Positions 20,077 through 34,224 of a stretch of DNA of 48,396 nucleotides are shown here, piece by piece. This DNA is from Sedimentisphaerales bacterium (GTDB taxonomy: Bacteria; Planctomycetota; Phycisphaerae; Sedimentisphaerales; Anaerohalosphaeraceae). The notes under the pieces were generated by a model, which had not been told where the DNA came from, made no database searches, and saw nothing but the letters and a program-made list of their open reading frames with translations. Positions within the stretch are counted from its first letter, which is position 1. Every line of letters starts with the position of its first letter. Both the position numbers and the translations under genes were made by a program. The DNA lies in NCBI GenBank assembly GCA_016926155.1, contig JAFGPC010000125.1, positions 1-48,396 on the forward strand, in the 5' to 3' direction.

Positions 20077-21303
20077 TTATGTTTGGCCCTCAGGCCCCAG
20101 CGAAAACAGTGTATACTCGCTCGGCTTGAATTCGTCAAGAAGTCCGTTCACTTCATCTGCAGTTACTGCCTTGATTGCCTTTACGTCATCGGCCACACTT
20201 CGATACTCTTTCAGATATACCCAGTTAAAACCAAGATCGACAAGTCTGCCCATCGGCTGTTCACTTTTAATGGTAACAGAACTGAGGACTTTGTTCCTGG
20301 CGGCATCCAGTTCTTCCTGGGTAATCCCATTTTGGATGACGTCATCGAAGATATTGTCAACAATCTCCATAACCCGAGTAACGTTTTCACGACCGCATTG
20401 AATATAGCTGTAAAAAGCTCCCACTCCATCCATAGACTCGTATTGCATAGCGGCTGTCTCGGCCAGGGCGGTATCTACCAAAGCCCAGAAAAAACGCGAT
20501 CCTGTCGAATCTCCAAGGATCAATCCCAGCAGCGAAGCGGCAAATCGTCGCGGATCCTGGGCCGCTACACCCGGACTGACCAGGCAGATGTGCTCACGGA
20601 CCAGGTTGGCTTTGATTTCATGCTGTCTGTTTTTGCTTCCGGGAAAAAAGCTTAATTCGCGACCGACCTCTGAAGGAGTCCATGAATCACATTTGTCTTT
20701 GGCCAGCTTGCAGAAATGATCAAAGTCAAAATTCCCACAACAGGCCAGAACCAGATTATTGGGTGCATAACGACACGTAAAATAGTCCCGCATTTGTTCC
20801 GCTGTCAATGCGGTGATGCTCTCCTTGCTGCCGAGAACACTATGGCCGCAGGGATGCTCAGCGAAATGCAGCGAACGGCACTGGTCCATCACGTCAAATT
20901 GAGGCAGATCCTTATACATCGCGATTTCTTCAAGGATTACGTTCTTTTCCATGTTGAAATCATCATCCCGAAGGGCCGGTCGCATTAATTGGGTCCACAG
21001 ATCGGTCACTTTATCGAGATATTCGGGCAGGACAGTAGCATAGTAGACGGTGTTTTCCTCGCTGGTGAAGGCGTTGAATTTGGCGCCGGTACTGTCGAAT
21101 GCCTCATTCACTTCCAACGCACTGAGCTTGTCGGTGCCCTTGAAAAGCATGTGTTCCAAAAAATGCGAAACGCCGCTGATTTGGGCCGTTTCATCCCGTG
21201 CGCCGGTCCGCACAAAAAAACCCACCGCCGCCGATTGGGCGGATGGATGAATCTCCCCGACGAGAGTCAGCCCGTTCGTTAATTGATGTTTTTGAAATTC
21301 CAT
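20077..21303 (-). CDS. M16-family zinc metallopeptidase, catalytic member, 408 aa
   Basis: The inverted zinc motif His-Phe-Leu-Glu-His lies near residue 48, followed by Met-Leu-Phe-Lys-Gly-Thr, and the downstream glutamate ligand is present in Val-Ile-Leu-Glu-Glu-Ile-Ala-Met-Tyr-Lys-Asp. The conserved Gly-Ala-Lys-Phe-Asn-Ala-Phe-Thr-Ser-Glu-Glu segment is intact. Members of about 400 residues with this layout work as clamshell peptidases, often pairing with a second, inactive subunit. There is no signal peptide, so it is probably cytoplasmic. The likely partner gene lies 29 bases upstream. Confidence 0.93.
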   Translation of the reverse strand: MEFQKHQLTNGLTLVGEIHPSAQSAAVGFFVRTGARDETAQISGVSHFLEHMLFKGTDKLSALEVNEAFDSTGAKFNAFTSEENTVYYATVLPEYLDKVTDLWTQLMRPALRDDDFNMEKNVILEEIAMYKDLPQFDVMDQCRSLHFAEHPCGHSVLGSKESITALTAEQMRDYFTCRYAPNNLVLACCGNFDFDHFCKLAKDKCDSWTPSEVGRELSFFPGSKNRQHEIKANLVREHICLVSPGVAAQDPRRFAASLLGLILGDSTGSRFFWALVDTALAETAAMQYESMDGVGAFYSYIQCGRENVTRVMEIVDNIFDDVIQNGITQEELDAARNKVLSSVTIKSEQPMGRLVDLGFNWVYLKEYRSVADDVKAIKAVTADEVNGLLDEFKPSEYTLFSLGPEGQT

Positions 21304-21332
21304 ATTTGAATATCTTCCCTTTATTATATTGT

Positions 21333-22565
21333 TCAGGAGCAGTGGACTTCGCTGGGACCGATCGTGGCGACGGTGTATTCAGTGAAACGATTGTGTTGGA
21401 GAAAAGAAAGAACCGTTTGGACAGTGGTTTCTTCCAGACGTTGTTTGATTTCTTCCATGGGTCGTACCCGTCCGAGCAGATAGTAATCTCCGGCGATCCC
21501 TCCGGCCCGGGAAATTGTCGATTCGCTCTGCATGATTAGTGTGCTTTTTAGCCCGACTTTCGCCCGGTCCATTTCTTCCTCAAGAATCCCCTCATGAAGC
21601 CGGTTGAATTCGGCGACAATGACATCCAGTGTTTCCTGGGCCTTATCCGGCGTTGTGCCGGCATAACACCGGATTCCGGCTATGTCGCGAAGCGAATGAT
21701 ACCGGGCTCTGACAGCATAACAGAGGCCGCGTTTTTCCCGTACCTCGGTAAATAATCGGCTGCTCATGCTCCCGGACAGAACCGACACCGCCGCCATGGC
21801 ATTGTAATAATCCTGGCTGGTGATCGGCGGTGTTTCCGTCATCAGTCCGATATGCACTTGCGCGCCGTCATGACTTTCGTGAACATACTTATTGCCTCGA
21901 GGACCGTTTTGTACTGTTGCGTCCGATCCGGTTTTAGCGGAGCCAAAGATCGATTCCATCTGACGACAGACGGTTTCAAAGTCGTATTTCCCCGCTACGG
22001 TAAAAATCATGCGACCGATATTGAATCTGTCCTGAATGATCTGTCGTGCATGGGCGGGTGTAAGGGCCTGCAGTTCTTCCAGCTTGCCCATCGACGGGCG
22101 ACCCCATGGACTGGGATAAAACTGCTCCGAAACGAGCATGCCGATTTTCTGTCTCGGATCATCATCCAATCCTGCCAACTCATGAAGCGCCAGTTGCTGG
22201 GAAAAGGCGAATTGTTCCTCGGTCAGGGCAGGCTGAAGGAGGATATCGGCATATAGATCAATCGCTTTGTGCAGGTTGCTTGCCTCAAGAGCACCGGCCA
22301 GTGACAGATGGGCGGCCGATACCTCGCCGGCCCGATGCAGACCGAGTGCATCCAGCGCATCGCTAAGCTGACGGCTGTTACGTTTTCCGGCCCCACGTAA
22401 AATCCAGTCGGCGATCACTTCCCCCGCTCCACATGCGCCCTCCGGAAGCAAAGCGGCCCCGCAGGGCAACAAAAAGGTGAACGCTGCGGACTGGACATGC
22501 TCCATCCGTTCACCTAGGATTACCATGCCGTTGTCGAGTGTATATTGGTCGAGTTTATTGGCCAT
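21333..22565 (-). CDS. M16-family protein lacking the zinc motif, 410 aa
   Basis: The protein matches M16 peptidases in length and layout, including Leu-Asn-Asn/Leu-Asp-Asn-Gly-Met at the start and Glu-Val-Arg-Glu-Lys-Arg-Gly-Leu-Cys-Tyr-Ala-Val in the C-terminal half. At the place of the His-x-x-Glu-His motif it has Gly-Glu-Val-Ile-Ala-Asp-Trp-Ile-Leu-Arg-Gly, so zinc cannot bind in the usual way. In M16B pairs the inactive subunit contributes substrate-binding residues to the active one. The next gene downstream is the active member, which supports a heterodimer. Confidence 0.9.
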   Translation of the reverse strand: MANKLDQYTLDNGMVILGERMEHVQSAAFTFLLPCGAALLPEGACGAGEVIADWILRGAGKRNSRQLSDALDALGLHRAGEVSAAHLSLAGALEASNLHKAIDLYADILLQPALTEEQFAFSQQLALHELAGLDDDPRQKIGMLVSEQFYPSPWGRPSMGKLEELQALTPAHARQIIQDRFNIGRMIFTVAGKYDFETVCRQMESIFGSAKTGSDATVQNGPRGNKYVHESHDGAQVHIGLMTETPPITSQDYYNAMAAVSVLSGSMSSRLFTEVREKRGLCYAVRARYHSLRDIAGIRCYAGTTPDKAQETLDVIVAEFNRLHEGILEEEMDRAKVGLKSTLIMQSESTISRAGGIAGDYYLLGRVRPMEEIKQRLEETTVQTVLSFLQHNRFTEYTVATIGPSEVHCS

Positions 22566-22669: not shown

Positions 22670-25600
22670 CTAAGCGACAGCGGTTTCGGGCGGCTCTTCG
22701 GCACTATCAAATTGAACGCTGATCTTTTTACTGACCCCCTTGGTTTGCATTGTGACACCGTACAACATATCCGCAATGCTCATGGTGCGCTTGGCATGAG
22801 TAACAATGACAAACTGGGAATCCTTCTTGAATTCCTGCACCACCAGGTTGAAACGTTCGTTATTGGCTTCATCGAGAGCCGCATCGACCTCATCGAGGAA
22901 ACAGAAGGGCGAGGGCTTGGTTTTGAAGACCGCGAATAGAAGACTGATCGCCGTCATGGTTTTTTCGCCGCCGCTTAGAAGACTGATGCTGCGGGTTTCC
23001 TTGCCGGGCGGGCGAGCGATAATCTCGATCCCGCTTTCAAGCAGGTCTTCCGGATTTTCCATTACAATATCCGCCTTGCCGCCGCCGAACAGTTTGCGGA
23101 ATAAGATATGGAAGTTTTCTCGGATTTCTTCGAAAGTAATCCGGAATTTTTCGCGGCTTTCCTTGTTAATCTTGGCGATAAGTTGTTCCAGTTGGATCTT
23201 GCTTGTATTTAAATCTTCAACCTGGGTGCTGAGAAACTCGAATCGCTTTTCCAGTTCATCCTGTTCTTCGATGGCATCGAGATTTACATTGCCGATCCGA
23301 TCGATTCTATCTCGTAGTTCAGTAATTTCTTTACGAACCAATTCCCAATCGACATCTTCCTGCTGGAAGTTGTCATATGCCTCCAGCAGATTGATTTGCA
23401 GTTCCTCTTGCACTCTCTGGGTAAGATCCTCTTCTTTGACCTGCAATTGACCCAGTTCGATCTTGAGCTGCTGCATCTGCTCTTCGACTTCGGCCTGGAC
23501 GACTCGCTGCTCACGCAGTCGCTGTTCCGTCATTTTCCGCTGTGCCAGAAGATGTTCCACTTCGCTGTGCAGTTGCTTGCTGATACGTTGGGCGTTTTCC
23601 TTTTCCACATACAGTTCTGAGACCCGACTTTCACTGGACAGGATATTTCGTTCGGTTTGAGAAACCTGTTCGTCGCAACCGAGTAGTTCCGTCCGGGCCG
23701 ATTCGATTGCCATTCGATTGTGCTGCAGTTGGCTTTGGTATGAGGCTACCTGCTGACGGATCGATCGTTGCTGCTCGGTAAACTGGCCGATTTCCACTTT
23801 CAACTCGGTGCGGAGAGCGGTTTGATGATCCAGAAGGGTCTTTTTTTCCTCCAAATGCTGTCCCAGTTCCTCAATATGAGCCGCTCGTTGTGTATTGATC
23901 TGTTCCAGTTCCTGCAGTTTCTGCTTGGAATCATGCTCACGCTGGACGGATTGGGAAATCTCTTCTTCCAGCATCTTGATCTCGCCGTTCAAAACGGGTT
24001 GTTCGTCGGTGAGACGCTGTATGTTCTGTTCCAGCATGCGAAGGCGGGATTCGGTATCGACCTTTTCCGTGCTGGCTTCATAGATACTTGTACGAAAATC
24101 CTTGCATAGTCGTGCCAGATGTTCAGTATGTCGGGTTTGTTCCTTACGATGATTTTCCAGTTCGGTGATCTGCTGCGACAGGCGGACCGTTTCTTCTTCC
24201 AGTTGGACAATCCGACTGCGTCGTGAAATCAGCCCCGTACTTTTGCCCAGCGGACCAATGCGAAGTGTATGACCGCCGTCAAAGACCTGCCCGTCGGTTG
24301 TAACAAACCGGTATCTGGGCCCGAGTTGACGCGATAAATCCATGGCCGTGTCCAGAGATTCTACAACGATTACCCGTCCCAGCAGATTCCATACCAGACG
24401 GGCGTGTTTGCTGTCATATTGAACGAATTCTATAACCCGGCCCAACACCGAAGCGTATTGCGAAAGGTCGTGAGTTTCAACAAAGGGCTCGACTCGATCC
24501 GAGCAGATAACGTTGACCCGACTGTTCAGGCGATCATGAAAATCCTGGTCATGGACAAATGCCCCGGTGCTGTTAACTACGAGGGTGTCGGCCTTGCCTT
24601 CCAGGGCGGCCTCCACGAGGGCGGCGTGTTCGGCATCCGCGTGAATAATATCGGCGACAATTCCCTCCACGAACTCAAACGAAGCCGAGCGGCTTTCGTT
24701 GCGCCGGCACAAAATGTCTTTCAATGCTTCATTAAGCCCTTCCCGTTTGGCCTCCATGTCACGGAGAATATTCAATTCACTCATCAAGCCGCTGCGCCGC
24801 TGTTTGGTGTCATTTAACAGGTCGGCTTCCTGCGCCATTTCACCATCGATCGCTTCCATTTCAGCACGCTTGGTATCTAAGCTGTCCTGGAGTTGTCCCA
24901 AAATACCATTAATATCTTGAAGCCTTGCCTGGTACTGGGCTTTGTCCGTAAGCAGGTTCGAGAGTTGTTGCTTGGCTGTAGCGGCTCGATCGCTGAGGCG
25001 GCTGACTTGCCCACTCAGGTTGTCGCGATAGGTATTCATGCTCTGGATCTCGTTGTGCAGTTGGGCGGTGCGGCGAACAATGTCGATAATCCCGCTTTTT
25101 TCGTCCTCCAGTTCCGCCTGAAGACTATCCAGTTCCATGTTGATCTCTTCCACGATAAGATCCATGGCCTCAAGCTGCTCTCGTTTGCCGGTAAAGATCG
25201 TCTCATTTTTTTCCAGATCTTGATTACAGCATCGAAGCTGGCGGGTAAATTCATCCGTGCGCCCGCCGAGTTGGCGGATCTGCGCAGAGGAGGTGGCTTT
25301 TCGCTGGTCCAATTCTTTCAGCCGGTTTTGCAAAAAGGAGATCCGTTCCATCTGCTGTTCGATTTTGCTGGTGGCAGCCACCAGGGAATTATCCCAGCGA
25401 TTGATCTGACCCTCGGATTCGATAATCTGGCTGCCAATCTGACTCAATTCGGCGTCACATCGTGCTACATCGGCGGCAACTCTGCCAAAACGGCCTTCCA
25501 ATTCTCCCAGAGCAGCCTTTTTTTCCGATTTTTGACAGGTAATTTTATCATATTCCGAAAGTGAATAGTTTACGCGCAGTTCCTTGAGGCGTTCACTGTA

Positions 25601-26248
25601 TTTCAGGTAGTTTCTGGCTTTGCCGGCCTGAAGCTTGATACTGCGAAGCTGCCGTTGCACTTCCGCTACGATATCGGCCAGACGAAGTAAGTTTTGTTCG
25701 GTCCGTTCGAGTTTGCGAGCAGCCTCCTTTTTGTGGGCCTTAAATTTGCTGATCCCAGCGGCTTCTTCAAAAATGACACGCCGATCGGTTTTAGAGGCTT
25801 GCAGGAGCTGATCGATCTGTCCCTGTTCAATGATGGAATAAGCACTGACGCCAACCCCGGTATCCATAAAGAGCTCTCGGATATCGCGCAGGCGACAGAC
25901 TCGATTATTGATTAAGTATTCGCTTTCTCCGCTTCGATAAAGACGGCGTGTGATTTCCAGGTCATCCTGTTCGATTCCCAGGCCTCGAACATCGGAAAAG
26001 CGGAGGGAAACCTGTGCCATGCCGCTGGGTTTGCGGCTACTGGATCCGCTGAAAATTACATCGAGCATTTGACCGCTACGAAGTTGTTTTGGGCTCTGGT
26101 TGCCGAGTACCCATTTCACGGCATCGACAACATTACTTTTGCCGCATCCATTGGGGCCTACAATCGCCGTGATCCGCTGATTGAATGCGAATTCGGTTTT
26201 ATCGGCAAAACTCTTGAAGCCGTTCAGGACGATCTTTTCAAGCTTCAT
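22670..26248 (-). CDS. smc: chromosome segregation protein SMC, 1192 aa
   Basis: SMC is the ATPase of bacterial condensin and works as an antiparallel coiled-coil dimer with ScpA and ScpB. The N-terminal ATPase half has the Walker A motif Gly-Pro-Asn-Gly-Cys-Gly-Lys-Ser near residue 31. Two long coiled coils flank a hinge near residues 510-660, which starts at Phe-Val-Glu-Gly-Ile-Val-Ala-Asp and includes Ala-Ala-Leu-Glu. The C-terminal half has the ABC signature Leu-Leu-Ser-Gly-Gly-Glu-Lys and the Walker B segment Phe-Cys-Phe-Leu-Asp-Glu-Val-Asp-Ala-Ala-Leu-Asp. Length is normal. GGAGG lies seven bases before the ATG. scpA and scpB are not in the window. Confidence 0.96.
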   Translation of the reverse strand: MKLEKIVLNGFKSFADKTEFAFNQRITAIVGPNGCGKSNVVDAVKWVLGNQSPKQLRSGQMLDVIFSGSSSRKPSGMAQVSLRFSDVRGLGIEQDDLEITRRLYRSGESEYLINNRVCRLRDIRELFMDTGVGVSAYSIIEQGQIDQLLQASKTDRRVIFEEAAGISKFKAHKKEAARKLERTEQNLLRLADIVAEVQRQLRSIKLQAGKARNYLKYSERLKELRVNYSLSEYDKITCQKSEKKAALGELEGRFGRVAADVARCDAELSQIGSQIIESEGQINRWDNSLVAATSKIEQQMERISFLQNRLKELDQRKATSSAQIRQLGGRTDEFTRQLRCCNQDLEKNETIFTGKREQLEAMDLIVEEINMELDSLQAELEDEKSGIIDIVRRTAQLHNEIQSMNTYRDNLSGQVSRLSDRAATAKQQLSNLLTDKAQYQARLQDINGILGQLQDSLDTKRAEMEAIDGEMAQEADLLNDTKQRRSGLMSELNILRDMEAKREGLNEALKDILCRRNESRSASFEFVEGIVADIIHADAEHAALVEAALEGKADTLVVNSTGAFVHDQDFHDRLNSRVNVICSDRVEPFVETHDLSQYASVLGRVIEFVQYDSKHARLVWNLLGRVIVVESLDTAMDLSRQLGPRYRFVTTDGQVFDGGHTLRIGPLGKSTGLISRRSRIVQLEEETVRLSQQITELENHRKEQTRHTEHLARLCKDFRTSIYEASTEKVDTESRLRMLEQNIQRLTDEQPVLNGEIKMLEEEISQSVQREHDSKQKLQELEQINTQRAAHIEELGQHLEEKKTLLDHQTALRTELKVEIGQFTEQQRSIRQQVASYQSQLQHNRMAIESARTELLGCDEQVSQTERNILSSESRVSELYVEKENAQRISKQLHSEVEHLLAQRKMTEQRLREQRVVQAEVEEQMQQLKIELGQLQVKEEDLTQRVQEELQINLLEAYDNFQQEDVDWELVRKEITELRDRIDRIGNVNLDAIEEQDELEKRFEFLSTQVEDLNTSKIQLEQLIAKINKESREKFRITFEEIRENFHILFRKLFGGGKADIVMENPEDLLESGIEIIARPPGKETRSISLLSGGEKTMTAISLLFAVFKTKPSPFCFLDEVDAALDEANNERFNLVVQEFKKDSQFVIVTHAKRTMSIADMLYGVTMQTKGVSKKISVQFDSAEEPPETAVA

Positions 26249-26329
26249 GCACTTCCTCCGTGGCCACTTGCCACATCAACATCCTTGTCGCATTATTTGT
26301 TCTTGTTGTTCCGGAATCGGACAAGGTCC

Positions 26330-27955
26330 TCATTGTCCCACCTCTGTTATCGGTCCAGAGATGAATTTGGCATCAATGATCCCCGCTTCACAAAGCTGTC
26401 GGATGATTGTCACAGTATCACAATAGGGAAGATTCAATCCCTGTCGCAATCCCGGTTTGTTCTCTACATCCAACCGTTCACACATCGTTCGCACGATATC
26501 GCCGACATTCCGTTCGGCCTTGAGAGGGCCGACCGGTCGCGGAAAACGCGGATCTTTTCGGATAATGGAAATCTCCTTGTCTTCCGGTCTGGCGTTGATC
26601 AGCACCTGTCCGTCAGTGCTGGTGAAGAAAACGTCTTTATCTATCGGGATCGGTGCACCGAACACTACCGCGCGAGGGCTGGATTTGCGCGAAATATAAA
26701 TGATTTTCGGCCCCCCGCACCGAACCTTGTCTATAAAGAAATCCCCTGCTACGAATAGATGCGTGATGGATAAATCTTCCAGTCGTCGAAGCTGTTCGTA
26801 AGCGGACCATCGAGCATTAAATGCTTTGTCATCAAGAAGCCTGGTCAATATGGGAGAAGCCTTGCTGCGATCGCATCCCATTCCGATAGCGGTTATCGCT
26901 TCGAGTCGATAGGTGTAATTCTCATCTTCGGCCATCGTTTTCAAAACAACCAGACCTCGGTCATCGTTCAAATTCAGAAGGCATCGAGCGGCATGAAAAC
27001 GCGTTAGTTCGTTAGGATCGTTCAACAAAGGTGCAATCGTATCAGCACTGCGTCGACCGATGGCTTCCAGGGCAAGTTCAGCAGGTCGCTTGTTCTTGTT
27101 GGTTTCCAGATGATTGACAAGCATGGTAATTCTGTCCTGCTGCTGTTGTGGATTATCGGCCAAAAAAAGATTACCGATCAAGGAGATAAATCGTTCCTTT
27201 TGGTTCTGATACTTCTTTGGAATCGATATTACAATCTCTTCAGGCGAAATAGCCGAAGCGGTTTTGCTTCCGAATCGTTCGTTAATCTGATTGCGAATGG
27301 CAGTCGAGGCATAGTAATTGGGTTGATGTAACGCGAATGAAGTGCGAACGGCGTTGAGGACGGTCCCTCCCCCCAGTATAAAACCCTCGAGCAGGCTTGG
27401 ATTACCGTTGAGTTTATCGATATAGATCGGTCCTTGAGCGGTAGCCAGGATTTTGAGATGAACGCCCAATCCGGTAAAACCACGTGCTTCCTTCAGTTCT
27501 GCCGTGTAAAGCCGTCCTCCATCGAGCGAGATGGTCTGGGTGCGGGAAAGGGCGCGGACCTTAATGTCGAAGTTTTCTCCCACCGAGGCCAGAGATGGGA
27601 TCACACCGTAAATCTCCACAACAGCGGTGTCCCGACTGTCAATGAATTTACCGGCATCAAATTTCACATCCCGGGGCATCTGTTGATTGATGTATTTAAC
27701 GAGCATGGCTCGCATGTCGGGGGGGCATTCGGCGGAACCGGTCCCCGGTAAACCGGCTACGATCCCGAAACCACGGACCGGGACGGCTCGGAACTGGTAA
27801 ACCCGCCCCAGTGAGCCGACAGTGACACCCAACTTGATTGGTTTCTCAAGTTCAGCGTTGGGATCAACCTTGGTTTCCTCACAACCGATCAAACCCGAGA
27901 TGGCGACTGCGAGGGCCGTAAAAGCTATATATAAAAACCGCTTCCTTGTATCCAT
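26330..27955 (-). CDS. FlgI-like/HEAT-repeat lipoprotein, about 541 aa
   Basis: A signal segment ends in a lipobox, Leu-Ile-Gly-Cys, with the cysteine at residue 25 from ATG 27955. The following 240 residues resemble flagellar P-ring protein FlgI: Val-Arg-Gly-Phe-Gly-Ile-Val-Ala-Gly-Leu-Pro-Gly-Thr-Gly, then Val-Gly-Glu-Asn-Phe-Asp-Ile-Lys-Val-Arg-Ala-Leu and Leu-Asp-Gly-Gly-Arg-Leu-Tyr. Residues of about 295-400 form two to three HEAT repeats (Ala-Leu-Glu-Ala-Ile-Gly; Ala-Arg-Cys-Leu-Leu-Asn-Leu). A C-terminal segment again recalls FlgI, with Asp-Gly-Gln-Val-Leu-Ile and Asn-Val-Gly-Asp-Ile-Val. True FlgI has no lipobox and no HEAT insertion, and no flagellar gene is near. A GTG four codons upstream (27967) is a weaker start. 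smc follows after 81 bases. Confidence 0.78.
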   Translation of the reverse strand: MDTRKRFLYIAFTALAVAISGLIGCEETKVDPNAELEKPIKLGVTVGSLGRVYQFRAVPVRGFGIVAGLPGTGSAECPPDMRAMLVKYINQQMPRDVKFDAGKFIDSRDTAVVEIYGVIPSLASVGENFDIKVRALSRTQTISLDGGRLYTAELKEARGFTGLGVHLKILATAQGPIYIDKLNGNPSLLEGFILGGGTVLNAVRTSFALHQPNYYASTAIRNQINERFGSKTASAISPEEIVISIPKKYQNQKERFISLIGNLFLADNPQQQQDRITMLVNHLETNKNKRPAELALEAIGRRSADTIAPLLNDPNELTRFHAARCLLNLNDDRGLVVLKTMAEDENYTYRLEAITAIGMGCDRSKASPILTRLLDDKAFNARWSAYEQLRRLEDLSITHLFVAGDFFIDKVRCGGPKIIYISRKSSPRAVVFGAPIPIDKDVFFTSTDGQVLINARPEDKEISIIRKDPRFPRPVGPLKAERNVGDIVRTMCERLDVENKPGLRQGLNLPYCDTVTIIRQLCEAGIIDAKFISGPITEVGQ

Positions 27956-28336
27956 AAATATACCCACTATAAAAGTTTATGGAGAGCAAGACCTATGCCA
28001 GAATCCCATACGGACTATCTGGACATGGACCGATAAAGCAAAAGGATACGCTTGACATGTAAACTCGTCAAGTAGATTCTATTTCTAGTCCATAGAAGCC
28101 TCAATGGCACAAGATATTGTGGTTTCAGGACTTGGAGTTTTTTTAGGGTACTGGGGAGAAGATTTAAAAAAAGGAGCCACGAGAATTGGAATACGCTTAT
28201 CGGATCCGAATAAATATGTAGGTTGCAGGGATTAACTGAGTATAGAAATTGGACGGGAAAAGCTCAAGGAGGGTAAACGGACAATTTAGATAACGTAATA
28301 TTTTTCAAGGCTTAGGTTCAGTGCTTCCGGTAATGT

Positions 28337-28530: not shown

Positions 28531-28632
28531 CCCTGTTTTAATTGGCTGTGCAGTCAATCTAGTCTGCATAGGAATAGGATCTATGGTGTTGATATGGGTA
28601 AGGGATTGGACCAGCAAGGGAGTGGTTGTACC

Positions 28633-29505
28633 ATGAAGGGAATTGTGCTGGCAGGAGGCAGCGGTACTCGTCTGTATCCGATTACCAAGGTTGTCAGTAA
28701 GCAGCTTCTGCATGTATACGACAAGCCGATGGTGTATTATCCACTAACAACGCTGATGCTGGCCGGTATACGAGATATTTTGATCATTTCTACACCTTCA
28801 GACCTGCCGCTTTATGAGCAGCTTCTGGGAGATGGATCTCAATGGGGACTGAACCTGTCGTATGCAGTTCAACCTAGACCGGAGGGGCTGGCTCAGGCAT
28901 TTATTATTGGTCGGGATTTTGTGGGGGGGCAACCGGCATGTCTGATTCTGGGAGACAATATCTTTTATGGGCATGGATTGATAGAGTCGCTTCGCCGGGC
29001 GGCCCAGGATAGCCCGGGCGCGACAATCTTCGGGTACAGGGTCCGGGATCCTCAACGATATGGTGTGATCGAGTTTGATTTGAGTGGGAAGGTGCTTTCC
29101 ATAGAAGAAAAGCCCGCCAATCCAAAATCGAATTATGCCGCTGTTGGGCTTTATTTTTATGATAAGGATATTACTGAAATTGTCGCCCGTGTTAAGCCTT
29201 CTGCTCGCGGAGAACTGGAAATTACCGAAGTGAATAATCTCTATCTCAAGAAGGGGAATTTACGTGTGGAATTGTTCGGTCGGGGGATCGCCTGGCTGGA
29301 TACAGGCACGCCGGAATCAATGCTGCAGGCTTCCAATTTTGTACAGACCGTTCAGCAGCGGCAGGGGTGGATGATCGCCTGCCCGGAAGAAATCTCCTTT
29401 CGTATGGGTTGGATTGATGCGGAACAGGTTCTTCGCCTGGCTGATCCTCTTCGTAAAAATCATTATGGAGAATATCTTCTGGATCTGGTCAAGGTGGGAC
29501 GATAA
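28633..29505 (+). CDS. rfbA: glucose-1-phosphate thymidylyltransferase, 290 aa
   Basis: The enzyme makes dTDP-glucose from dTTP and glucose 1-phosphate, the entry to dTDP-deoxysugars. The opening [16 protein letters not shown] is the nucleotide-binding signature, and Gly-Asp-Asn-Ile-Phe-Tyr-Gly carries the metal-binding aspartate. ATG 28633 fits the family start and has AAGGGAG ten bases before it; an in-frame ATG at 28594 would add 13 unsupported residues. The length of 290 is typical. It is the first gene of the rfbA-C-D-B run, with rfbC starting directly after the stop codon. Confidence 0.96.
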
Positions 29506-30066
29506 ATGCGGATCTTGCAGACAAAACTGCCGGAAGTATTACTGATCGAACCGACGGCTTTCGGAGACGATCGTGGCTTCTTTCTGGAAACCTGGAATGG
29601 GCAGCGATATACGGAAGCCGGACTGGATGTCGATTTTGTACAGGACAATGTATCATTCTCCCAGAAAGGCGTATTACGAGGATTGCATTTTCAACATCCG
29701 CAGGCACAGGGTAAGCTTGTACAGGTCTTGGCGGGTGATGTGTTTGATGTGGCTGTGGATATCCGGATCGGTTCGAAAACATTCGGGCAGTGGATTGGGG
29801 AGAAGTTGTCGGTGGAGAACCATCGACAATTGTATATCCCGCCGGGCTTTGCACATGGATTCTGTGTCTTGAGCGAGACGGCACTGTTCAGCTACAAATG
29901 CACCGATTATTACCACCCGCAAACCGAAGGTGGAGTGCTTTGGAACGATCCGGAGGTGGGGATCGACTGGCCGGTCGATCATCCGCAGCTTTCCGCCAAA
30001 GACAAGAAATATACCTGTTTGTCGGACATCCCTGCAGATCGACTCCCGAGGATAGGAGAGGTCTGA
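29506..30066 (+). CDS. rfbC: dTDP-4-dehydrorhamnose 3,5-epimerase, 186 aa
   Basis: The cupin-fold enzyme epimerises C3 and C5 of dTDP-4-keto-6-deoxyglucose. Diagnostic segments are Gly-Val-Leu-Arg-Gly-Leu-His-Phe-Gln, which holds the catalytic histidine, Phe-Asp-Val-Ala-Val-Asp-Ile-Arg with the catalytic aspartate, and Ile-Pro-Pro-Gly-Phe-Ala-His-Gly-Phe. Length is normal. The ATG follows the rfbA stop with no gap, and the stop overlaps the rfbD start by one base, so the genes should be translationally coupled. Confidence 0.96.
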   Translation: MRILQTKLPEVLLIEPTAFGDDRGFFLETWNGQRYTEAGLDVDFVQDNVSFSQKGVLRGLHFQHPQAQGKLVQVLAGDVFDVAVDIRIGSKTFGQWIGEKLSVENHRQLYIPPGFAHGFCVLSETALFSYKCTDYYHPQTEGGVLWNDPEVGIDWPVDHPQLSAKDKKYTCLSDIPADRLPRIGEV

Positions 30067-30914
30067 TGTCGGACAAAGATATGGTTATTGTAGGCGGTCG
30101 TGGGATGCTGGGTACCGACCTTATTACAGCTTGCCTCTCTGTAGGGATCAAACCCATGGTGTACGACCTGCCGGAATTTGATATTTGTCGGTGTGACCAT
30201 CTGGAGCAGGCGATTGTCACGGGATCGATAGTTGTGAATTGCGCTGCCTATACGAATGTAGAGAAAGCCGAATCGGAGCCGGAACTGGCTGAGAAGGTCA
30301 ACGCGGAAGCGGTAGACATGCTTGGACATGTAGCCCGGACCCGGAATGCTTATGTAATTCATATCAGTACGGATTTTGTATTTGACGGTTTGCAGGATCA
30401 TCCTTACGTGGAAACAGATCTCCCAAATCCTGTCAGTGTTTATGGTACCAGCAAATTTCACGGTGAACAGGCATTGGCCCACAGTGGGGCCCGACATTGT
30501 ATAATTCGTGTGCAATGGACCTATGGACACGGCGGAACCAATTTTGTCAAAAAAATCCTGGAACTGGCCCAATCAAGAGATCGCCTCAAGGTGATCGACG
30601 ATCAAGTCGGATCTCCCACGGCAACGACAGAAGTGGCTGGAGTGCTCGTTGAAATATTGTCCATGCAGGAAAAGCCGACCGGGCTCTTTCATCTTGCGGC
30701 GTCAGGTTATACCAGCCGGTATGATATGGCCCGATTCGTATTGGCCGCAAAAGGTTTACGGACTTTGCTTGAGCCCTGCAAGACCAGTGATTTTCCCACC
30801 GCAGCACGACGTCCCCTTAACAGTCGGTTTGACTGCAGCAAAATACAGGCTCTATTAGGACGGAATCTTACGCACTGGGAAGAACCGTTGAAGCATTTTA
30901 TGGAGGAATTATGA
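30066..30914 (+). CDS. rfbD: dTDP-4-dehydrorhamnose reductase, 282 aa
   Basis: This short-chain dehydrogenase-type enzyme completes dTDP-L-rhamnose. It has the N-terminal dinucleotide motif Gly-Gly-Arg-Gly-Met-Leu-Gly, the segment Val-Asn-Cys-Ala-Ala-Tyr-Thr-Asn-Val-Glu-Lys-Ala-Glu, and the catalytic Tyr-x-x-x-Lys in Val-Tyr-Gly-Thr-Ser-Lys. The frame is open far upstream, across rfbC, but ATG 30066 has AGGAGAGG ahead of it and begins the known fold. It overlaps rfbC by one base and rfbB by four (ATGA). Confidence 0.95.
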   Translation: MSDKDMVIVGGRGMLGTDLITACLSVGIKPMVYDLPEFDICRCDHLEQAIVTGSIVVNCAAYTNVEKAESEPELAEKVNAEAVDMLGHVARTRNAYVIHISTDFVFDGLQDHPYVETDLPNPVSVYGTSKFHGEQALAHSGARHCIIRVQWTYGHGGTNFVKKILELAQSRDRLKVIDDQVGSPTATTEVAGVLVEILSMQEKPTGLFHLAASGYTSRYDMARFVLAAKGLRTLLEPCKTSDFPTAARRPLNSRFDCSKIQALLGRNLTHWEEPLKHFMEEL

Positions 30915-31921
30915 ATCTTCTTGTAACCGGCGGGGCGGGTTTTATCGGCAGTAATTTCGTACGTATGGTCTTGCGGGATCATCCAGACTGTCGGATCGTA
31001 AACCTCGATAAATTAACCTATGCCGGTAACCTTGAAAATCTGGCAGGATATATGGAGAATCCTAACCATATGTTTGTCAGAGGCGACATCTGCGATGCGG
31101 ACCTGATTTCCCAGCTCATGGATGAATACGGAATCAATGTAATGATCAATTTTGCCGCCGAGAGCCATGTGGACCGCTCATTGGTGGATCCGGGAGTATT
31201 TATAGACACGAATGTAACCGGCACATTAACCTTATTGAAAGTCGCCCTGGAACGGAAAATCGATCGATTTCTTCAGGTTTCAACGGATGAAGTATATGGT
31301 TCACTAGGGCCGGATGGATTTTTTACGGAACAGTCGCCGATTCAGCCCAATTCCCCCTATTCCGCGAGCAAAGCGGCCGCGGATCATCTGGTACACGCCT
31401 TTGGGCATAGCTGGGGATTAAAGGTTAATATTACCCGCTGTTCGAACAACTATGGGGAATACCAATTCCCGGAAAAGATGATTCCGCTGATGATTCATAA
31501 TGCAATGCACGATAAGGAATTGCCGGTCTATGGGGATGGCTTGTATATTCGAGACTGGCTGTATGTGTACGACCATTGCACGGCGATCTGGCAGGTGTTG
31601 ACGAAAGGTCGTATTGGTGAAGTATACAATATCGGGGGAAACAATGAGAAAACCAATCTGGAGGTGGTTGGATTGATTCTGGAACATCTGGGTAAGCCTT
31701 CGACGCTGATCCGGCATGTCAAGGATCGTCCTGGTCATGACCGTCGTTATGCGATTGATTCCGGCAAAACCATGCAGGAGTTGGGTTGGTCGCCATCGGT
31801 GACATTTGAGGAGGGGATTGCCAGGACAATCGACTGGTATCGTTCCAATACGGAATGGCTCAATCATATCGTTTCGGGCGCCTACCAGCAGTATTATGAA
31901 AGCATGTACCGAGACAGATAA
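30911..31921 (+). CDS. rfbB: dTDP-glucose 4,6-dehydratase, 336 aa
   Basis: The enzyme turns dTDP-glucose into dTDP-4-keto-6-deoxyglucose using bound NAD. Motifs: Gly-Gly-Ala-Gly-Phe-Ile-Gly-Ser-Asn at the start, Ala-Ala-Glu-Ser-His-Val-Asp-Arg-Ser, Ser-Thr-Asp-Glu-Val-Tyr-Gly with the catalytic Asp-Glu pair, and Tyr-Ser-Ala-Ser-Lys. Its product feeds both L-rhamnose (rfbC, rfbD) and, in this locus, the 3-amino sugar branch (36692-38727). It overlaps rfbD by four bases. The ABC exporter gene begins 29 bases downstream. Confidence 0.97.
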   Translation: MNLLVTGGAGFIGSNFVRMVLRDHPDCRIVNLDKLTYAGNLENLAGYMENPNHMFVRGDICDADLISQLMDEYGINVMINFAAESHVDRSLVDPGVFIDTNVTGTLTLLKVALERKIDRFLQVSTDEVYGSLGPDGFFTEQSPIQPNSPYSASKAAADHLVHAFGHSWGLKVNITRCSNNYGEYQFPEKMIPLMIHNAMHDKELPVYGDGLYIRDWLYVYDHCTAIWQVLTKGRIGEVYNIGGNNEKTNLEVVGLILEHLGKPSTLIRHVKDRPGHDRRYAIDSGKTMQELGWSPSVTFEEGIARTIDWYRSNTEWLNHIVSGAYQQYYESMYRDR

Positions 31922-31950
31922 CCATCGGATACTGAAGCTAAGGATAATTT

Positions 31951-34224
31951 ATGTCACCGACCATGTCGGATCATCCAATTGAAAAAAAACGTAACCGCAA
32001 AACACGACCGCCGGTAAGGCAATTCTGGCGTGTCTGGAAATACGTCTGGCCTCAATGGTTTCGTCTTGCTTGGGTTGTAATCACCGCTCTCTTTGTAGGT
32101 ATGCTGTTTTCGGTAAGTTTTATGGCGATCATCCCTCTTCTGAAGGTGATGATGGGCGAAGAAGGCCTACATGGATGGATCGACCGTAAGTGTTGTGACC
32201 TTCGTTACGGCATGGATTTTTATGTACCCAATCGTTCGGATTTCATGGGGGTCAACGCCGAGATTGCCTATTATCTTCTTGTCACAGGAGTCGAGGAGGA
32301 GGAGAGGGCCTATGCAAATGGTTTTCGGCCTCAAGACCGCATCCTGGATGTAGCCCATTATGCGCGTGAAAAGGGACTTGAAAAGGTTCCTGCCTCCAGA
32401 CTGCTGGAACTTCTGGCGACAGCCGAAGACGGTGTCTCTCTTCCGGTGCGAATCCTGCGGCCGAATGCGTCCGGAATACAGGAGCCAAGGGAAATCGTCT
32501 TGCACACTCTCAAGCATCCGGACAACATCTCTCCGGAGGAGATGCCGCTGTCTTCTCGCCTGGAATGGGGCTTCAAATGGGCGATTGTGCACTGGGCCCA
32601 AAAGGCAATCAGTGTTGTTTCTCGAGAAGAATCGCGTACCGCGCGAAGCCAAAGTGTGGTCTTTATCATTCTGGTGATGGCCTTCATCACTTCATTCCGA
32701 TGTATCGGTACGTTCGTACAAAAATATCTGTCCGAGAGGGTGGTGCAGACGGCAATCACTCATTTGCGTGATGATGTATTTGCTCATGTGATGTTCATGC
32801 CGATCGGCTTTTTTTCCGTAAAAGGAACCAGTGATACGATCAGCCGGATTCTTGGAGATACGGCCGCCTCGGGAAAAGGGATTAAAATTCTCCTGGGCAA
32901 AGCCCTCCTGGAGCCGATCAAGGCTTTCTTCTGTCTTGTCGGGGCCATGTTGATCAACTGGCAACTGGCATTGATTTTTATGGCGGCGGCGCCGGTTACG
33001 ATTGCCTTACTGGGTCTTCTGGGTAAAAAAATGCGTCGGGCGACCAAACGTTCACTGATTGCCAGCGCTATGATGCTGGGACGTTTGCAGGATAGTATCA
33101 GTGCGTTGCGTGTCGTAAAAGTGTATAACCGTCAGAACACGGAGGTAGTATCTTTCAGTGGCGTGAACCGTCAATTGTTGCGACGGGCGATTCATATTGC
33201 CAAACTGGATGCGGCGACCGGTCCGATTATGGAATTTTTGGGAATGGTGGCCGGATCAGCGGCTCTTCTTGTCGGGGTGCACTGGGTTATGCAAAACGAC
33301 ATGGAAGGCAGTTTTTTCTTCGCCCTTTTGGTTCTGCTTGGGACCAGTGCTGAATCGGTCCGGAAAGTCAGCGATGTCTGGAACCGCGTGCAAGAGGCCA
33401 ATGCGGCGGCGGATCGCGTCTTTGAAATTGTCGACAATCCTTTGGAGCACGAGGACCCCGAGGCCTTTGAATTGAAACCTTTGCATGAGGAAGTTGAATT
33501 TCGCGATATTACATTTTCGTATCCCGGCGCCGATACCACCGCGTTGAATGATGTGAGTCTGAAAGTGCAGGCGGGGCAGACCATTGCCGTGGTGGGGCCA
33601 AACGGATCGGGTAAAACCACCCTGATCAATCTGATTCCGCGTTTTTATGATCCCGATGCTGGACAAGTCTTTATTGACGGACAAGACATTCATATGGCGA
33701 CTCTGCGAAGCCTTCGAGCCCAGATCGGGATGGTGACACAGAATGTAGTGACCTTTCATGAGTCTGTAGCAGCCAATATCGGATACGGGAAAGAGGGAGC
33801 GACTCGTGAGGAAATCATAGCGGCGGCCCAAAAAGCGCATGCGCATGAATTTATTGAGCGCCTCCCGGATGGGTATGATACTGTAATCGGAGAACACGGA
33901 TCGGGTTTTAGCGGAGGGCAGTTGCAGCGGCTTGTCATTGCCCGGGCGGTAGTGAAAAATCCAGCTATCCTGATCTTTGACGAAGCAATGAGCCAAATTG
34001 ATGCCGATAGCGAGGCGAAAATCAATGAGGCACTGTCGGAACTGATGGAAGGACGAACCTGCTTTATTATTGCACATCGTTTCAGCACGGTTGTTCATGC
34101 CGATTCGATTGTGGTGATGGATAAAGGCGGAATCGTAGCGCAGGGCAGACACGGCGAACTGATGGAATCATGCAGCGTGTATCGCAGCCTTTATGAAACG
34201 CAGTTAATTACCGCCGATGAATAA
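31951..34224 (+). CDS. MsbA-type ABC exporter with a PDZ-like insertion in the first outer loop, 757 aa
   Basis: One chain carries a transmembrane domain and an ATPase. The ATPase is complete: Walker A Gly-Pro-Asn-Gly-Ser-Gly-Lys-Thr (about 549-556), signature Phe-Ser-Gly-Gly-Gln (653-657), Walker B Ile-Leu-Ile-Phe-Asp-Glu-Ala (673-679) and the switch histidine at 709. Between the first membrane helix (about 36-62) and the second (about 234-256) lies a loop of some 170 residues, where MsbA has only a short turn. Residues 100-188 of it look like a PDZ domain: Ala-Asn-Gly-Phe-Arg-Pro-Gln-Asp-Arg-Ile-Leu-Asp-Val, a helix, then Val-Ser-Leu-Pro-Val-Arg-Ile-Leu-Arg. The family exports lipid-linked glycans or lipid A. 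It follows rfbB and precedes glycosyltransferases. AAGGAT precedes the ATG. Confidence 0.9.
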   Translation: MSPTMSDHPIEKKRNRKTRPPVRQFWRVWKYVWPQWFRLAWVVITALFVGMLFSVSFMAIIPLLKVMMGEEGLHGWIDRKCCDLRYGMDFYVPNRSDFMGVNAEIAYYLLVTGVEEEERAYANGFRPQDRILDVAHYAREKGLEKVPASRLLELLATAEDGVSLPVRILRPNASGIQEPREIVLHTLKHPDNISPEEMPLSSRLEWGFKWAIVHWAQKAISVVSREESRTARSQSVVFIILVMAFITSFRCIGTFVQKYLSERVVQTAITHLRDDVFAHVMFMPIGFFSVKGTSDTISRILGDTAASGKGIKILLGKALLEPIKAFFCLVGAMLINWQLALIFMAAAPVTIALLGLLGKKMRRATKRSLIASAMMLGRLQDSISALRVVKVYNRQNTEVVSFSGVNRQLLRRAIHIAKLDAATGPIMEFLGMVAGSAALLVGVHWVMQNDMEGSFFFALLVLLGTSAESVRKVSDVWNRVQEANAAADRVFEIVDNPLEHEDPEAFELKPLHEEVEFRDITFSYPGADTTALNDVSLKVQAGQTIAVVGPNGSGKTTLINLIPRFYDPDAGQVFIDGQDIHMATLRSLRAQIGMVTQNVVTFHESVAANIGYGKEGATREEIIAAAQKAHAHEFIERLPDGYDTVIGEHGSGFSGGQLQRLVIARAVVKNPAILIFDEAMSQIDADSEAKINEALSELMEGRTCFIIAHRFSTVVHADSIVVMDKGGIVAQGRHGELMESCSVYRSLYETQLITADE

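Follow-up and report, generated by a model that had tools for sequence, protein, structure and literature searches.

FlgI forms the P-ring, a ring of 26 subunits around the flagellar rod, and is secreted without a lipid anchor. In mature Salmonella FlgI the outer rim domain ends at residue 230, the lower inner ring domain spans residues 231-346, and lysines 63 and 95 face the rod (PMC8298488). FlgH (PF02107), which builds the L-ring, is a lipid-anchored part of an envelope ring (PMC8298488). As far as the literature searched is concerned, neither a non-flagellar FlgI nor HEAT repeats inserted in a P-ring fold have been described, and no paper on the protein family presented here was found. The main text of a study on essential genes of Planctopirus limnophila mentions neither FlgI nor smc.

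The window, a stretch of 48,396 nucleotides from a Sedimentisphaerales bacterium with a metagenome-type genome of 5.0 Mb in 222 contigs, carries a minus-strand gene (26330..27955) whose 541-amino-acid product combines both features. Its reading frame starts either at an in-frame GTG (26330-27967) or at the ATG at 27955. Residues 1-24 (27884..27955, minus strand) form a hydrophobic N-terminal helix read as a signal peptide, and this export signal is kept across the phylum. It is followed by the lipobox LIGC with Cys25 (27881..27883, minus strand), a position occupied by cysteine in 64/65 aligned relatives. The remaining protein, encoded on the same strand, is divided into a first FlgI-like part (residues 44-267, 27155..27826), a HEAT-repeat insertion (residues 268-398, 26762..27154) and a second FlgI-like part (residues 414-534, 26354..26716). 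A short spacer of approx. 80 bp (26249..26329, minus strand), in which no terminator-like site was found, separates the gene from smc (22670..26248, minus strand; TIGR02168, E 2.5e-295). Two M16 peptidase genes on the same strand lie 3′ of smc (20077-22565). The divergent upstream region (28594-34224) contains dTDP-sugar genes, namely rmlA and, by reading, apparent rmlC, rmlD and rmlB, together with a gene for an MsbA-like exporter that is extended considerably at its N-terminus.

A sequence-only reading of this locus had noted the lipobox, FlgI-like segments before and after a HEAT block and smc as the next gene, and had proposed that the P-ring fold was reused as a membrane-anchored ring or scaffold in the periplasm, with the HEAT repeats as a partner-binding surface. 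The observed features were confirmed, and the interpretation is partly supported: a P-ring fold outside the flagellum, a membrane-anchor motif and HEAT repeats inside the fold are borne out, whereas a ring, a periplasmic location and partner binding would be further properties of the protein. The Pfam FlgI family PF02119 matched residues 50-267 (E 5e-25, 88.5 bits, cut-off 25.3) and HEAT_2 PF13646 matched residues 279-349 (E 4e-11, 43.6 bits, cut-off 27.7). The NCBIfam model PRK05303 gave 70.9 bits against a cut-off of 300, which argues that the protein is not a standard FlgI. A profile built from 65 relatives aligned with solved FlgI chains over profile positions 42-287 (E 1.6e-26), and its repeat region matched designed HEAT proteins. 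The monomer structure prediction that the earlier reading had suggested yielded a confident FlgI-type AlphaFold model (pLDDT 94.4, pTM 0.88), and a structure search with this model placed four FlgI chains on top (Foldseek E 4e-15). Residues 44-267 of the model aligned with FlgI 20-246, corresponding to the upper inner ring and outer rim domains, with VIA-align Z values of 15.9-16.4 (16.4 for 7nvg). The rmsd of about 9 Å suggests a probable shift of the domains against one another.

Pfam gave no match to the FlgI segment C-terminal of the HEAT block. Alignment by hhalign paired this segment with the last 43 FlgI columns (E 6e-5, probability 65%), and the C-terminal 150 residues folded separately with a pLDDT of 91. 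Searched alone with Foldseek, the piece returned nothing under 0.001 and FlgI was not within the best 50; FlgI ranked first only in a second look with VIA-align. There, the best of all compared chains was FlgI 8z5n 247-363, the region of the lower inner ring domain, with an rmsd of 2.9 over 76 aligned residues and a Z of 5.3, in a range below 8 that may mean merely a common arrangement. The runner-up was an unrelated chain with Z 3.5. We assign the segment to FlgI because of the rank, the gap to the next chain, the register and the independent profile match, taken together. The match is modest in score but lies exactly where FlgI continues, and all three FlgI domains appear to be present in order, as judged from profiles and model. 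With the published domain borders, the HEAT insert would be placed between the outer rim and the lower inner ring domains, so that the HEAT domain might protrude at the rim of a ring. The insert itself is predicted to be helical, with structural matches to alpha-Rep and HEAT proteins.

The HEAT insert is a constant part of the family, being found in all 65 aligned relatives with a length of 130-138 residues. A query of genome contigs with the single protein gave no match, and an alignment of closer relatives led to 67 loci. The family was detected in 64/66 good genomes of the order, and in the profile survey all genomes listed for the class Phycisphaerae had it; elsewhere in the phylum it occurred in six further families (f35, f56, f76, f85, f102 and f103); these phylum-wide figures refer to an even draw of genomes and not to all species. 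It was absent from Brocadiae-like and several other Planctomycetota families, in which smc is present. Family members scored at least 251 bits for the main match and true FlgI proteins at most 113 bits. In a tree of the FlgI part the family stood apart from true FlgI, with a support of only 0.60 for the family node. Named relatives were nearly all from Planctomycetota metagenome-assembled genomes labeled Phycisphaerae, Phycisphaerales, Sedimentisphaerales or just Planctomycetota.

The earlier reading had mentioned smc merely as the next gene; its pairing with the FlgI-HEAT gene across much of the phylum is a stronger clue. The comparison covered 41 loci, namely the window and stretches of up to 20 kb from 40 genomes, the gene being found only frame by frame in three of them. 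In 37/41 loci smc lay directly 3′ on the same strand, with spacers of -17 to 249 bp. One intervening gene was present in locus L100, and in L099, L103 and L107 smc did not adjoin. Among named genomes, a set that overlaps with these loci, smc was adjacent in 58/64 loci with enough flanking sequence to show it. The surroundings of the pair are shuffled; no other neighbor was common to more than 10/41 loci, the most widespread being an M16 peptidase cluster in 10 loci. Tree distances of the FlgI-HEAT protein and SMC correlated with r 0.92, a value that may be what vertical descent alone would give.

Outside the families with a FlgI-HEAT gene, smc is preceded by nrdR, nrdD and a radical SAM gene (the Brocadiae-like family f53, and family f98) or by other genes. 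The nrdR-nrdD-radical SAM genes directly 5′ of smc were seen in L228-L233 and L246 (2944-8086). Family f56 shows the order nrdR-nrdD-radical SAM-radical SAM-FlgI-HEAT gene-smc. Family f33 has, ahead of smc, a gene for a lipoprotein that lacks HEAT repeats and contains a divergent FlgI-like domain (L235:5714-7354, L245:5699-7297). This lipoprotein was found in 16 genomes, was confined to f33 in the survey and had smc within the flank in 10/14 loci; PF02119 matched P0003 with E 1.4e-7 and P0002 with 0.03. A FlgI-like lipoprotein before smc therefore likely predates the HEAT insert or arose twice, and either origin argues for a real association with smc. In family f26 (L240:578-1873, minus strand, and L241), a protein of 432-440 amino acids without an obvious signal peptide is encoded directly 5′ of smc; Pfam gave no match to the L240 protein.

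These arrangements bear on a competing explanation, in which an envelope lipoprotein with a function of its own shares the smc promoter and has no functional link to SMC, the gene order being kept because breaking the transcript would harm smc expression. The two products should sit on opposite sides of a membrane, smc follows nrdR-nrdD or other genes in families where it can live without the FlgI-HEAT gene, and in f56 the gene lies between nrd-type genes and smc, all of which would fit such a passenger. Adjacency in nine tenths of the loci despite shuffled surroundings, and the HEAT-less FlgI-like lipoprotein at the same place in f33, are more than a passenger needs. We regard this explanation as rather unlikely, and still as the most serious competitor of the reading that we prefer.

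The FlgI-HEAT gene lies away from flagellar genes, as the sequence-only reading had stated. The true FlgI of the same genome is encoded on another contig (C97, E 1e-97) beside FlgH and FlgA, and FlgH, FliG and FlgA are all present in this genome away from the window. In the survey of flagella that had been suggested, 16/40 genomes of the order, at least 90% complete, kept the FlgI-HEAT protein without true FlgI, FlgH or FliG, and flagellated genomes carried a separate true FlgI alongside it. The protein is thus neither unrelated to FlgI nor tied to complete flagellar operons that lack a true FlgI, and it does not depend on flagella. ChapFlgA (FlgA) was unmatched in 13 of the 16 non-flagellated genomes and gave weak matches in three. 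In genome G005 two FlgH matches were seen (C12:30937 and C101:7), the second of which is partial and located at a contig end. At the position of the rod-facing Lys95 of FlgI, 64/65 relatives have a residue other than lysine; the Lys63 position is K in 7/65 and R in 12/65. The true FlgI proteins of the order vary too, with lysine at the Lys95 position in 15/22 and mostly glycine at the Lys63 position.

Alternatively, a pilus, a secretion system, the crateriform structures on the surface of Planctomycetota or some other machine crossing the envelope might use the protein as its bushing or pore ring. The FlgI fold encircles a shaft, and an envelope location would agree with a lipid anchor. Aspartate at position +2 is rare (3/64); under the sorting rule known from E. 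coli this would favor the outer membrane. The loss of the rod-facing Lys95 in 64/65 relatives speaks against such a use, no third gene is widely conserved beside the FlgI-HEAT gene, and the pairing with smc would be left unexplained. We consider such a ring improbable. A cytoplasmic HEAT-repeat regulator of SMC resembling the HAWK subunits, with a misread signal peptide, was likewise considered, given HEAT repeats next to smc. The HEAT part resembles the cohesin loader Scc2 (6zz6) with Z 7.0, within the range expected for any HEAT repeat. Outside the repeats the protein has a P-ring fold. Judged from sequence, its conserved export signal and lipobox led us to reject a cytoplasmic SMC partner, and a regulator of this type is very improbable. 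ScpA, present as usual (40/40 genomes), speaks against it as well and led us to reject a replacement of ScpA. That the protein is an accessory component of the flagellar P-ring, as its FlgI homology and the many members in flagellated genomes might suggest, is hardly tenable, because flagellated genomes carry a separate FlgI and the 16 genomes without FlgI, FlgH and FliG rule out an accessory flagellar part.

The predicted fold, the position of the insert, the conserved lipidation motif, the independence from flagella and the pairing with smc are best accounted for by a FlgI paralogue that departed from the flagellum and took on the role of a membrane-anchored scaffold in the envelope, coupled with smc, a tentative reading to which we give a probability of about 0.42. 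The retained FlgI domains would assemble into a ring or arc in the envelope, with the HEAT domain facing outward and binding a partner. The protein may act in a process that requires SMC; the likeliest candidate is the part played by the envelope in chromosome segregation or in FtsZ-independent division or budding. SMC is cytoplasmic and the FlgI-HEAT protein has an export signal, so that direct contact is not expected: the inner membrane would separate the two proteins, and a link would need a membrane protein in between or act through regulation alone. Against a scaffold coupled with smc, the conserved gene order could mean shared transcription only, and the pair is split in some genomes; the lost rod-facing lysines count against a ring. 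Moreover, families with smc but without the FlgI-HEAT gene indicate that the protein is not needed for segregation or for FtsZ-less division in general.

It is an open question how Planctomycetota manage cell division in the absence of FtsZ (PMC10632474). The ftsZ gene is reported to be lost in all Planctomycetes (PMC10632474), and FtsZ loss in the phylum is also described in PMC10945688. Among the genomes tested here, 0/40 had an FtsZ above the family cut-off. Two adjacent FtsZ/tubulin-like genes, which might be a divergent tubulin-like pair, scored far under the ftsZ cut-off (47 and 37 bits) and lie on another contig of the host genome (G000:C199:23249-25649), and single low-scoring FtsZ/tubulin-like genes occur in G008, G011 and G057. 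A more specific version of the scaffold reading is improbable: it places the ring or arc where FtsZ-less Planctomycetota divide or bud and lets it couple envelope constriction to SMC-driven chromosome segregation. A widespread and apparently envelope-located protein of ring-forming ancestry that is encoded beside smc and is independent of flagella may bear on FtsZ-less division, and it offers one gene to delete, tag and image.

Among known systems, FlgI (PF02119; 7bgl, 7nvg, 8z5n) is the closest in fold and domain order. The FlgI-HEAT protein differs from it by the lipidation motif, the HEAT insert of approx. 130 residues, its occurrence without flagella, the loss of Lys95 and the position of its gene beside smc instead of flagellar genes. 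With FlgH it would share the role of an envelope ring part and the lipid anchor, as far as the lipidation motif indicates; in contrast, the FlgI-HEAT protein has no FlgH match, and FlgH is missing from the 16 genomes that keep it. The insert scores above the Pfam cut-off and is predicted to fold like other HEAT proteins (PF13646), from which it is set apart by its location inside a P-ring fold. The HAWK subunits of condensin and cohesin likewise combine HEAT repeats with a link to SMC, which here is given by gene order only, whereas the export signal and the lipidation motif would direct the FlgI-HEAT protein to another compartment than SMC and the kleisin. The f33 lipoprotein (P0002, P0003) shares the lipobox, the FlgI-like domain and smc as the next gene, and differs in its very divergent FlgI part and the lack of HEAT repeats.
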